This document shows, piece after piece, positions 13,759 through 18,109 of a DNA stretch of 39,693 bases. Position 1 is the first letter of the stretch, and every line of letters starts with the position of its first letter. The position numbers were made by a program, and so were the translations under genes. Below the pieces are notes generated by a model. It did not search any database. It was given only the letters and a program-made list of their open reading frames with translations, and was not told the DNA's origin. Origin of the DNA: Bacilli bacterium (GTDB taxonomy: Bacteria > Bacillota_I > Bacilli_A > RFN20 > CAG-288); contig JALEUS010000094.1 in NCBI GenBank assembly GCA_022780765.1, positions 1-39,693 on the forward strand. Direction: 5' to 3'.

Positions 13759-15012
13759 ATGGAAAAAATATCTGCTGATTACTTTTTTTCGATAAAAAAG
13801 AGTTTTGTTTTATCATCGGAGGATCGAGAAGTTTTATCTTTCATGTATCTTCCTATCATAAAAAAAGAAGCTTTCTCTCTGTATCTGTTTCTATGTGATC
13901 TTTACAATTTGCAAAATTGTGCATGCTTTATAAATGGAAGAAGTTTTTTTGAACAGAATGGTTTTTTTCAAGATGATGTTTGCGATTCCATAAAAAGATT
14001 GGAAGCTATACATCTGATGAAGACATACTTGAAAAAAAACAGTAAAAACAGCGATGCGGAGTATATCTTTTATCTTTATAAACCTTATAGCGTCACCGAA
14101 TTTTTCTTGGATCCTCTCTTCTCATCCCTTTTAAAATCTGTTGTCGATGAAAAGTATCTCACACAGCTTAGAATTCATTTCAACTACACTGAGAAAAAAG
14201 ATATCGACTCTTCATACGTCGATATAAGCAGCAAGTTTCATGAGGTTTTTACTCTCCCTGAGATAAAAAACGACACTCTTTTTGTCGACTATAATCCTGA
14301 AAGCAAACGTCCAACTGGCTTTGATATCGATTCACTAAAAGAAGAACTGAACGCTTTAAACGTTCCTTTTCCAGCTATTGAAAAAAATATCGATGTTATC
14401 AAGAATGTTCATTCTTTATATGGTTGTGATACTAGGACTTTGGCTAGCTACATTCAGCAGTCTTTCTCTTTGAGCACGATGAGATTAGATTGCACAGCTT
14501 TTGAAAATCTAGCAAAGATCAACTGTGTCTTTGTTGGTAAAACAGGTTTTTCAAACAAGAGTGAGGAAAGCAGGTTTGAAGATAAGAAACACTACAGCAG
14601 TAAATATCATTCGCTGATAGAGTTCTTCTCAACCAAGTACTGTCAAGGCAAGAAGCTTAGCAAGTATCAACTATCTACTTTACAGTCTGTCTCTTCTCTT
14701 TATCCAGAGTTAGAAAATATTGCACTCATGTACGTTATCGATTATGTGATGGGAAAGACAGATGGCATTTTAAATGAAAAGTTTCTTTTCGGTGTCTGCG
14801 ATTCTTTAAGAAGCAATAATATTTATAAGTTTGACGATGTTCAGAAGTTTTTGACTGATTTTGAACAGAGAAAGAATGAAAAGAGAACAGTGAAAAGAAA
14901 AAGAGATGACAACATAGAGAAGAAAGAGAATAAAAAACAAGGATTTGAGAATCAGATTGATGATGACGACTTGTTTAAGATGATGTTAGAAGATCTGAAA
15001 AAGGGAAGATAG
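13759..15012 (+). CDS. dnaB: Replication initiation and membrane attachment protein DnaB (Bacillus type)
   Basis: In Firmicutes this protein works with DnaD and DnaI to load the replicative helicase at the origin. The 417 residues hold an N-terminal winged-helix-like region with YSVTEFFLDPLF (about 113-124). A DnaB/DnaD-type helical domain (about 295-375) follows, with KLSKYQLSTL and IDYVMGKTDG, and the tail is highly charged. Similarity to B. subtilis DnaB is at the level of domain layout and place beside a dnaI-like gene. The mRNA is predicted to be leaderless. It is divergent from the pyk operon. Confidence 0.82.
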   Translation: MEKISADYFFSIKKSFVLSSEDREVLSFMYLPIIKKEAFSLYLFLCDLYNLQNCACFINGRSFFEQNGFFQDDVCDSIKRLEAIHLMKTYLKKNSKNSDAEYIFYLYKPYSVTEFFLDPLFSSLLKSVVDEKYLTQLRIHFNYTEKKDIDSSYVDISSKFHEVFTLPEIKNDTLFVDYNPESKRPTGFDIDSLKEELNALNVPFPAIEKNIDVIKNVHSLYGCDTRTLASYIQQSFSLSTMRLDCTAFENLAKINCVFVGKTGFSNKSEESRFEDKKHYSSKYHSLIEFFSTKYCQGKKLSKYQLSTLQSVSSLYPELENIALMYVIDYVMGKTDGILNEKFLFGVCDSLRSNNIYKFDDVQKFLTDFEQRKNEKRTVKRKRDDNIEKKENKKQGFENQIDDDDLFKMMLEDLKKGR

Positions 15013-15019
15013 AAAAATT

Positions 15020-15976
15020 ATGAGTGATAACAATAATTTATTCAATATCGATGAGAGTTTGATTTCTTCTCTGTCTTTGTCATCTGCCGAGATAGAAAAG
15101 TTAGAAAGTGAGATTGCTAGACTTGAGAAAAGAGATATAGAAGGTGAAAAGATAATAAAAGATGTTTTATTTAATCTCAAGATGAGTAGAGAGGATTACA
15201 TAAAGAACATCGGTTTCTTCTACAGCTTTTTAAAAGGAAGAGAAGAGTGTATTGGATGTCAAGAGAAAAATCACTTCTTCTGCAAAAAGAAGAAGAACAA
15301 AGGAGTTATTCCAACTCTGATTGTAGATAATATGTACAAATATTTTCGTATCGGTGACACCTACTGCGAAGCAAAACTTTCTTTTGATGAGAGAATGAAA
15401 CAAGATCTTCTTTTCACTTCTTTAGATAGAGGTGATCTGGTTGAATACTACAGACAGGTAGATAACGATATAAAAAATGATGTGATGTCGATCAATGAGA
15501 AGACAATAATTGTCAATATTATGTACATGTTAAGAAGAATTAAGAAGGAACAGTACAATAAATCTTTTGTTCTCAACTACAATCATATTCTTGATAAGAA
15601 GTATTCTAATCCTGAAAAGCTTTTCTCTTACTTGATTGTAGATCAGCTTTTAAACAGTTCTTTGAGCATCTCATATTATGATTTTTCAGATGAGACGATG
15701 TCAGATTTATCAAGTGACACAAACTATTATCATGATTTTCAAACTGGTTTGAAAAGCGATATCTGTTTTATCAATAACTGTGACTGCCGTCCTCAATACA
15801 TCCCACAGTTTTTAAAAATTCATCTTCCTGAGATATTAAAAAAGAGAGAAGAGAAAGGAAAACTTTCTATCTTCTATTTTTCAAAGACCGATAAACATAT
15901 CAGCTTTTTAAAAGATAAACTTAATGGTTCTCTATCTGAGATAGAGATAAAAGAAATTTTTAATAATTTATTTTAG
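15020..15976 (+). CDS. DnaI-like primosomal protein with degenerate ATPase domain
   Basis: In Bacillus DnaI is the ATP-dependent loader of the replicative helicase. Here the N-terminal helicase-binding domain looks intact (about 1-125), with zinc-type cysteines ECIGC, FFCKK and DTYCE in the expected order. The C-terminal ~190 residues align in outline with the AAA+ domain. However, the Walker A segment (GxxGxGKT) is absent, FVLNYNHILDKK taking its place, and the Walker B aspartates (LMLDDIG in Bacillus) read CFINNCD. It has 318 residues, like DnaI (311). It follows dnaB by 7 nt. It is probably a structural, non-hydrolysing loader. Confidence 0.75.
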   Translation: MSDNNNLFNIDESLISSLSLSSAEIEKLESEIARLEKRDIEGEKIIKDVLFNLKMSREDYIKNIGFFYSFLKGREECIGCQEKNHFFCKKKKNKGVIPTLIVDNMYKYFRIGDTYCEAKLSFDERMKQDLLFTSLDRGDLVEYYRQVDNDIKNDVMSINEKTIIVNIMYMLRRIKKEQYNKSFVLNYNHILDKKYSNPEKLFSYLIVDQLLNSSLSISYYDFSDETMSDLSSDTNYYHDFQTGLKSDICFINNCDCRPQYIPQFLKIHLPEILKKREEKGKLSIFYFSKTDKHISFLKDKLNGSLSEIEIKEIFNNLF

Positions 15977-16022
15977 AAAAATCATCTCTTCTGACTAAAT
16001 AAGTGTTGAAGGAGATCAGTTT

Positions 16023-16442
16023 ATGTATTTACAAAATGGAGAAGGAAATTGTGCCAAAGCCTGCATAATCAACGTTCTTATCGATCAGTTTAAAGATGAG
16101 AAAATGGCTTTAACTTATGTGGATCCTAGCATCAAAGATCTGTTATCGATAAAAAAGGAGTTAAGCAAACACTCTTTGAATTATCAAGGGTATGAGGTTG
16201 ATTCATTATCTGAGATAACTGAGGATAATCTTCCTGCTGTATGTCATATAAATTATGGAAGAAACGATCACTTTGTTCTTCTTAAGAAGATAGGGAAAAA
16301 GACAGTGACTATCATTGATCCAGACAATGGAGTGATCAAACTTAAGAAAGATGAGTTTTTAAATGTGTTTTTGCGCAGAATACTCCTTAAAGAGAACAGA
16401 GTAAAGGATGAGAGAAACAATTTAAATTTTTTTCTAAATTAG
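16023..16442 (+). CDS. C39-family cysteine peptidase domain protein
   Basis: 139 residues forming a complete C39 peptidase, the domain that removes GG-type leader peptides in bacteriocin ABC exporters. The oxyanion Gln4, catalytic Cys10 (GNCAKAC), His83 (NDHFVLL) and Asp99 (IIDPDNG) are all in place with family spacing. A strong GAAGGAG site precedes the ATG. The ORF ends two codons after T TTT TTT CTA (16427-16433). A -1 shift there opens a frame that runs without a stop into the following membrane ORF. It may therefore be the front half of a ~401-residue peptidase-membrane protein. No substrate peptide was recognised nearby. Confidence 0.85.
   Translation: MYLQNGEGNCAKACIINVLIDQFKDEKMALTYVDPSIKDLLSIKKELSKHSLNYQGYEVDSLSEITEDNLPAVCHINYGRNDHFVLLKKIGKKTVTIIDPDNGVIKLKKDEFLNVFLRRILLKENRVKDERNNLNFFLN
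16427..16433 (+). promoter_or_regulatory. Candidate -1 ribosomal frameshift site (T TTT TTT)
   Basis: In the C39 reading frame the sequence reads AAT TTT TTT CTA, a perfect X XXY YYZ heptamer. AAAGGA, resembling a Shine-Dalgarno, lies about 9 nt upstream, as in E. coli dnaX. Downstream sequence is pyrimidine-rich with no obvious hairpin. Homopolymer sequencing error or a mutation is the alternative. Confidence 0.45.
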
Positions 16443-16507
16443 AAAAGTTTTTATTTTTTCTTTTCTATCTTCTTGAATCTTTCTTCATATTAGGTTCGAT
16501 ATATCTG

Positions 16508-17227
16508 ATGAATAAGAAGAATTCTTTTCAGTTCTCCTTTTACTTTATCCTATCTTCTTTTTTTGCTATTGTTTTTCAAAATCTGTATACTATTCACTTA
16601 AGAAATGCTTTTGATAAAAAAATCATTTACAGGTTCTTAAAAGATCATCCATCGAAAAAGAACTTTCAACTGACCAGCAGAATGTTTGATGAACTTTTAA
16701 AAAGAGAGAATCTGATCCTATCAAATGGTGTCTATATCACTGTAAGTCTCTTCTATTTTGCTTTTCAAAAAATATCCTCATCAGTATTTTTATTTATCTC
16801 TTTTTTGAGTGTTTTATCTGCTTGTCTTTTAAAGAATGATGTAAATAAAAACATGAGAAAAGCTAAGATAGATGAGGATGATTTTATATCTTCACTAGAG
16901 TGTGCAAATATCTCTTTCTCTTCTTTAAAGAAATGTAAAAAAACTGTCTCTCATATCTATTTTCTGAATCTTATTCCGTATGCCTTTCCTTTTATACTTA
17001 TTGTCTTTTTATATATTTTCAGTTCAATATTTAGCAAAACTGTTCATTATGGAAATTTTATCTTTAATATTTTCTTCTCTTTCTCTTTTTCAATCTCTTC
17101 ACAGTGTTTTATAAACAGTTATGTAAACTATGGAAAAACATGCTATTACTTCTCTTTGTTAGAAGATGATATAAGTCAATATATTATTAGAGATAAAAAA
17201 TTGTATAATAAAAGGTACACCGAATAA
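16508..17227 (+). CDS. Membrane protein resembling the transmembrane domain of a C39 ABC exporter, no ATPase
   Basis: 239 residues from the first ATG, but the frame is open upstream to the C39 gene and adds another hydrophobic helix (FLFFLFYLLESFFILG). With that, six membrane helices are predicted. A cytosolic segment (FISSLECANISF...) sits where exporters have the loop before helix 5. The protein ends at LLEDDISQY... plus ~15 residues, where the nucleotide-binding domain would start. No Walker A, signature or Walker B motif exists here or in the next genes. No Shine-Dalgarno precedes ATG 16508. It is read best as the second half of a frameshift-fused protein, or as a truncated exporter. Confidence 0.65.
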   Translation: MNKKNSFQFSFYFILSSFFAIVFQNLYTIHLRNAFDKKIIYRFLKDHPSKKNFQLTSRMFDELLKRENLILSNGVYITVSLFYFAFQKISSSVFLFISFLSVLSACLLKNDVNKNMRKAKIDEDDFISSLECANISFSSLKKCKKTVSHIYFLNLIPYAFPFILIVFLYIFSSIFSKTVHYGNFIFNIFFSFSFSISSQCFINSYVNYGKTCYYFSLLEDDISQYIIRDKKLYNKRYTE

Positions 17228-17239
17228 GGGGGTATATTG

Positions 17240-18109
17240 ATGAATAAATTATCTGCTAACATCGATTTTTTAAACAAAACTAGAGTAAAAGTAGATGAAA
17301 AACTGTTTTCTGAGACAATAACACACACTCTGTCTTATCTTAAGAAAGAAGGGCAATATGTTTTATCTGTCACAATTGTAAATTCAAAAGAGATGCAGAA
17401 ACTAAACAGAGAATACAAAGGTAAGGATGCTCCTACCGATGTGCTTACTTTTCCCTATTCTTCTGAGAAACAAGAAGATGAGCCATTTATCGATTTAGGT
17501 TCTGTGATACTCTGTCATGACATCTGCAAAAAGGAAGCTGAGAAGAGAAATGAAAACATCTTAAAGACATATGCTCTTCTTTTAATACATGGTATCTTAC
17601 ACATATTTGGGTATGATCACCACAGGAGCAAGAGCGAAGAGAAAGAGATGTTCTCCTTGCAAGAGAAAATTTTAGATACTCTCTGCTACGATTTTATAAC
17701 AGATATGAAACTCATGAAAAAATGTTTAAAAGAAGCTCAAAGCAGGGCATATACACCTTATTCTCATTTCAATGTAGGTGCTGTTGTTGTCACTAAGGAT
17801 GGAAAGTATCATCTAGGTTGCAACATTGAAAATTCAGCATACTCTGTTGCTTGTTGCGCTGAGAGAGTAGCTCTATTTAAGGTGATATCTCAAGGGTATA
17901 AAAAAGAAGACATAGTATCTTTAGGATGTATCACTTCATCTTCAAATATCGGTACTCCATGCGGTGTATGTCGTCAGGCTATGGCAGAACTTATGAATCT
18001 CAAATGTCCAGTTTACATCTTCAATAATGACATGGACAAAAAGCTTTTTACAACAGTTGAAGGACTTCTTCCCTACTCGTTTTCTTCAGAGGATCTCTTT
18101 GCAAAATGA
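17240..18109 (+). CDS. Fused rRNA maturation factor YbeY and cytidine deaminase
   Basis: One 289-residue chain with two enzymes. Residues ~1-155 are YbeY, a metal-dependent endoribonuclease for 16S rRNA 3' maturation and ribosome quality control, with the metal site HGILHIFGYDH (about 117-127). Residues ~158-289 are cytidine deaminase (pyrimidine salvage), with its zinc and catalytic motifs CCAER and PCGVCRQ. The linker is only a few residues and has no internal stop or ribosome site. In Bacillus the order is ybeY-dgkA-cdd-era; here dgkA is absent and the flanking genes are joined. ATG 17240 (AAGGGGGT upstream) is preferred over the TTG at 17237. The stop overlaps the era start by 4 nt. Confidence 0.93.
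   Translation: MNKLSANIDFLNKTRVKVDEKLFSETITHTLSYLKKEGQYVLSVTIVNSKEMQKLNREYKGKDAPTDVLTFPYSSEKQEDEPFIDLGSVILCHDICKKEAEKRNENILKTYALLLIHGILHIFGYDHHRSKSEEKEMFSLQEKILDTLCYDFITDMKLMKKCLKEAQSRAYTPYSHFNVGAVVVTKDGKYHLGCNIENSAYSVACCAERVALFKVISQGYKKEDIVSLGCITSSSNIGTPCGVCRQAMAELMNLKCPVYIFNNDMDKKLFTTVEGLLPYSFSSEDLFAK

Follow-up and report, generated by a model that had tools for sequence, protein, structure and literature searches.

A C39 peptidase gene beside ybeY that lacks its ATPase across a bacterial order and carries a frame break in one Bacilli genome

Introduction

In peptide exporters, the C39 domain is known as the part that cuts off the leader. In the window, as we call the whole stretch of 39,693 nucleotides from a Bacilli bacterium that was analysed here, an ORF for such a peptidase stops close behind a run of seven T residues, a membrane ORF lies downstream of it, and the exporter ATPase is missing. 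We asked whether these are two genes, one gene joined by frameshifting or the remains of an exporter, and what a C39 protein of this kind might do. The initial annotation, made from the sequence alone, had offered two readings: programmed -1 frameshifting that yields free peptidase plus a membrane-tethered form, or a broken exporter.

Results

The peptidase and membrane parts belong to one gene

The C39 ORF (Table 1) matched Peptidase_C39 in Pfam (PF03412, 1.2e-13), with Gln4, Cys10, His83 and Asp99 all present as had been noted at the outset. Its 3' end reads AAT TTT TTT CTA AAT TAG, and both the in-frame T7 near this end and the -1 frame that stays open to 17227 were reproduced; read-through gives 401 aa. 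The 239-aa membrane ORF, described earlier as having no ribosome site of its own, indeed lacks a good one at its start (16508). No second C39 gene was found in the window's own genome.

Table 1. Positions of the features discussed (window coordinates unless a locus is given)
Feature	Position	Strand	Remarks
DnaB/DnaD-like replication protein, upstream neighbour	13759..15012	+	named by position and conservation; no Pfam match
DnaI-like, upstream neighbour	15020..15976	+	named by position; no Pfam match
Ribosome-binding site GAAGGAG	16008..16014	+	8 nt 5' of ATG; from sequence
C39 peptidase ORF	16023..16442	+	139 aa, ATG start; frame 0 stops at TAG; Pfam PF03412, sequence
AAAGGA	16403..16408	+	18 nt 5' of T7; too distant for a dnaX-type stimulator
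T7 run forming an in-frame T_TTT_TTT heptamer where the frame breaks	16427..16433	+	not conserved in relatives
Membrane half of the C39 gene, -1 frame, exporter-type six-helix domain without ATPase	16433..17227	+	continuous alignment with uninterrupted homologues; fold of an intact relative
AU-rich weak hairpin, 8 bp, 12-nt loop	16440..16467	+	6 nt 3' of T7; -5.2 kcal/mol
239-aa ORF as called from the first ATG inside the membrane half	16508..17227	+	no separate gene in relatives
YbeY-cytidine deaminase fusion, downstream neighbour	17237..18109	+	opens the conserved ybeY-cdd-era-recO-glyS-dnaG block
Small ORF of family f17	L090:8061-8480, L091:10705-11151, L092:10208-10639, L094:10025-10435, L096:6686-7126		behind a full C39-ABC exporter

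A homologue in a single open frame was observed in 39 of 59 relatives, the uninterrupted proteins being typically about 380-450 aa long, and the window read-through aligned across the junction with all the uninterrupted homologues inspected. A profile built from 27 uninterrupted proteins was run on 279 genomes of the order and matched in 255 of them (143 of the 150 cleanest), a count that includes a few contig-end fragments or additional ordinary exporters (724-753 aa) of some genomes; among the matches listed, the frame was mostly open over about 380-490 aa. Only three frame-broken copies were seen among about 250. Besides the window copy, these are G254:C6:65847-67027 and G234:C47:12102-13270, both broken inside the membrane domain and elsewhere than in the window.

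We concluded that 16023-17227 is one gene cut by a one-base frame break, not two genes, which bears out the earlier view that peptidase and membrane part form a unit. Two separate genes were rejected because the membrane ORF was never a gene of its own in the relatives inspected.

The family is near-core in the order and adjoins ybeY in nearly every genome. In nearly all inspected loci (families f1, f3 and f5) the C39 membrane gene immediately precedes ybeY-(cdd)-era-recO-glyS-dnaG; the exceptions are L074, where no ybeY block follows, and L075, where one gene intervenes. On the 5' side of the C39 gene, f1 and f3 have dnaB-dnaI-like genes, and several f5 loci have a putative hrcA-grpE-dnaK-dnaJ cluster, so named from the lengths of its genes. 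This order-wide retention of the slot upstream of ybeY agrees with the initial argument that the operon position speaks against junk.

Some local arrangements were also recorded. In the window genus (also in L062, L063, L065-L069, L088 and L089), a single ORF of about 290 aa encodes YbeY joined to cytidine deaminase; the other families have a separate gene for each. In all three loci of f4/f6 (L210:4020-5422, L211:2906-4261 and L212:1882-4361) the C39 gene is adjacent to and divergent from a putative Na/Pi cotransporter-like membrane protein, identified by eye.

The ATPase is absent order-wide, and the membrane domain resembles that of exporters

None of the 27 family members matched ABC_tran, and none matched Pfam ABC_membrane. 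The family ORFs end before the nucleotide-binding domain (Walker A, signature and Walker B), the next gene being ybeY. The missing ATPase noted in the window is thus real and order-wide, and was lost before the order diversified.

As fold evidence, an intact relative of the genus (L062) was modelled (pLDDT 78.9, pTM 0.66). The model contains a C39 domain and six long helices, in line with the six-helix, exporter-like reading given initially. Its best solved matches were PCAT1 entries (about 457 columns, E 4e-12), compared to about 1e-4 for peptidase-only entries, indicating that the membrane part contributes to the fold match. In an hhalign profile comparison the membrane domain alone matched exporters with E 4e-5, a probability of 70% and 13% identity; the reversed control gave 1.4% probability and no match. 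By sequence, the predicted homology of the membrane domain to exporters is modest (13% identity).

Two families of the order have also lost the membrane domain, entirely or for the most part. Directly 5' of ybeY, the f4 proteins consist of the C39 domain alone (120-127 aa), and f2 has a 171-aa protein with the C39 domain and one helix.

Full exporters occupy the same slot, and the ATPase was lost more than once

Full C39-ABC exporters of 605-690 aa were found at the ybeY slot in Erysipelotrichales-like (L099, L101, L104), Spiroplasma/Mesoplasma-like (L097, L098, L105) and Mycoplasma-like bacteria (L106, L107), these labels being inferred from gene content and UGA reading. One small ORF lies between the C39-ABC gene and ybeY in L106 and L107. 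The slot proteins of L099, L101, L104 and L107 have both C39 and ABC_tran domains; those of L097 and L098 gave no ABC_tran match. Elsewhere, in f17, a small ORF (136-148 aa; Table 1), perhaps an accessory protein, lies behind a full C39-ABC exporter, and in L093 and L103 a few kb separate this exporter locus from ybeY.

In the Mesoplasma-like clade f11 (L170-L183 and L192), the protein at the ybeY slot is a full-length C39-ABC protein with a decayed ATPase domain: Walker A, signature and Walker B are missing from 14 such proteins, and the ATPase motifs are intact in the sister genera of this clade. In the tree, which has long branches, the ATPase-less C39 and TM clade is monophyletic (100/99) and apart from this decayed-ATPase clade, which joins intact Spiroplasma-like proteins (98/96). 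The separate placement of the two clades indicates two or more losses of the ATPase. The ATPase-less proteins of f8 are placed elsewhere with weak support (83/85) and perhaps represent a third loss. The case for orthology between the family and the full exporters depends chiefly on gene order, together with NF045998 as the best NCBIfam match of those exporters.

The catalytic residues are nearly invariant: Cys is present in 78 of 78 family members, His in 79 of 79 and Asp in 76 of 79, and the triad is complete in all 14 proteins of the decayed-ATPase clade. The exceptions are the three family members without Asp and two short forms without Gln.

The frame break is specific to the window genome

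Three accounts of the break itself were weighed; each concerns the break alone, and none conflicts with the main explanation of the gene. The first is programmed -1 frameshifting, or slippage of transcription at the T7, by which this species would produce a free peptidase plus a tethered form. It would explain a canonical in-frame T_TTT_TTT with a stop three codons downstream, a weak hairpin at the canonical distance of 6 nt, a long product that is what relatives encode, and the lack of extra decay in either half of the gene. Relatives, however, share neither the split position nor the heptamer: across the order, no relative compared had a split at this site or the heptamer. The comparison of homologues for a conserved heptamer versus an in-frame fusion, proposed in the initial annotation, returned simple in-frame fusions, an outcome that it had itself listed against frameshifting. 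An SD-like stimulator about 10 nt 5' of the heptamer was not found, and the AAAGGA element, given earlier as ~9 nt away as in dnaX, is wrongly spaced at 18 nt, the shorter gap being a miscount. The AU-rich hairpin scored z -2.8 alone but -0.8 over 90 nt, and was equalled by 6 of 200 shuffles. Slippery heptamers are also common among the window genes (135 in-frame X_XXY_YYZ, 4 of them T_TTT_TTT), and the 'perfect' heptamer is not independent evidence, since a T-run break in this phase creates it automatically. The site therefore has the in-frame slippery heptamer of dnaX-type frameshifting, but differs in its misplaced SD-like element, weak hairpin and lack of conservation. The order-wide comparison led us to drop programmed frameshifting as the main reading, and we regard it as very unlikely.

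The window copy is not faster-evolving (tip distance 1.21 versus 1.03-1.79 in siblings, with control genes similar), from which it follows that the break either arose recently or does not exist. That the true gene is uninterrupted and the homopolymer was wrongly assembled or sequenced is a possibility of some weight, though short of probable: the genome looks metagenome-derived (105 contigs), the break is located in the T7, the gene has no extra divergence, and broken copies are so few among about 250. On the other hand, only one other locus looked frame-broken when 240 kb of the window genome was compared with a relative, and dozens of A7/T7 or longer runs are intact within window genes. Alternatively, the mutation may be genuine and recent, so that a soluble peptidase of the C39 domain only remains, as a further step of the reduction seen elsewhere in the order; this is a comparably plausible reading that we put forward tentatively. 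The break falls at the domain boundary and spares the whole C39 domain, which is retained in all three broken copies; f4 and f2 provide precedents directly before ybeY; and the genome has at least one clear pseudogene (pstB-like, C27). The membrane half, however, has acquired no further stop or frame break, and three broken copies are few. That both error and real decay are possible is indicated by the other frame-broken locus together with the pstB-like pseudogene. The suggestion of a broken exporter fared better in one part than in the other: loss of the ATPase is ancient and predates the diversification of the order, but this frame break is confined to the window genome. A long-standing pseudogene was ruled out by the normal branch length and the lack of further breaks.

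Two loci of the window genome were noted in this connection. G000:C16:12104-12557 (L125) shows apparent frame breaks in a repeat-protein-like gene, and G000:C27:480-1560 (L219), a pstB-like phosphate-transporter ATPase with many stops and frame changes, is a real pseudogene.

Searches for an ATPase partner and a substrate

The protein could still be a half-transporter that works with an ATPase encoded elsewhere, and the conservation of the membrane domain in most families would fit this. The search for an orphan ATPase, suggested initially, gave 47 ABC-ATPase matches in the window genome, several of them in single-domain ORFs, but no adjacent candidate. An ATPase gene never adjoined the C39 gene in the inspected loci, the same slot lost its ATPase at least twice, and two families have also lost most or all of the membrane domain; we consider a half-transporter unlikely. 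A search for Bacteriocin_IIc double-glycine peptides gave no match in 28 of 29 genomes, in a weak test whose controls were barely detected. The sole match was weak and came from a relative that also carries a full exporter.

Discussion

The family shares with PCAT/AMS transporters (PCAT1, ComA and LctT; TIGR01193) the N-terminal C39 domain, the same triad and a six-helix exporter-type membrane domain, and these transporters are its best structural match. It differs from them in having no nucleotide-binding domain, in its shortened cytosolic loops, and in the lack of a Bacteriocin_IIc peptide except in the one full-exporter genome (by the weak test above). NF045998, the Mbov_0121 family peptidase domain-containing ABC transporter, is the top NCBIfam match of the window peptidase and of some relatives as well as of the ybeY-slot full exporters; the order's members, however, lack the ATPase third and score 25-48 bits where the cut-off is 500, the window peptidase at 47.5 bits falling under this curated value. 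Stand-alone C39 peptidases such as FapD and FilB (NCBIfam) likewise have a C39 domain unfused to an ABC ATPase and gave weak profile matches, but they occur in another context and have no exporter-type membrane domain.

We propose that the family descends from a PCAT encoded upstream of ybeY, in an ancestor common to this order and to Spiroplasma-, Mycoplasma- and Erysipelotrichales-like bacteria. Family members would then have shed the nucleotide-binding domain but retained a C39 peptidase with all its catalytic residues, attached to an exporter-type membrane domain of six helices. Such a protein would most likely act as a membrane-tethered cytosolic cysteine protease that cleaves an endogenous substrate, probably after a Gly-Gly-like site, and cleavage would proceed without ATP-driven transport. 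In the window genome, the one frame break, at the junction of the peptidase and membrane parts, would be either a recent truncation that leaves a soluble 139-aa peptidase or a T-run assembly error. Protease activity is predicted from the conserved residues, and the type of substrate and the absence of a separate ATPase partner are likewise presumed. Taken as a whole, the locus is very probably one ATPase-less, PCAT-derived family gene, likely for a housekeeping, ATP-independent, membrane-tethered C39 protease, that is frame-broken here.

The minimal cell JCVI-syn3A has a C39 protein, gene 0401, annotated as sublancin-transporter-like and of unexplained function; no double-glycine substrate candidate was reported for it, and import of lipoyl peptides was tentatively assumed (PMC6609329). 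Glycyl-tRNA synthetase is gene 0405 in the same cell (PMC6609329), and the numbering of 0401, four before it, fits the order C39, YbeY, Era, RecO and GlyRS of L097 and L098. From this gene numbering and order, the ybeY-slot C39 gene appears to correspond to 0401. Beyond PMC6609329, we found no literature on an ATPase-less PCAT or on a link between C39 and ybeY.

That the ATPase was lost or decayed several times independently with the catalytic residues kept argues for a housekeeping protease, and its independent loss at the ybeY slot counts against import or export as the role of the entire family. We therefore suggest, as a tentative view that falls just short of an even call, that in Mollicutes-related bacteria the C39 protein encoded at the ybeY locus, gene 0401 included, may at heart be a housekeeping protease and not an exporter, conserved for cutting an endogenous substrate independently of ATP. 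An order-wide gene, fixed beside ybeY, with its triad kept and its ATPase gone, suggests that selection keeps the cutting and not the pumping, and the function of a minimal-cell gene becomes testable through separate peptidase versus ATPase mutants.
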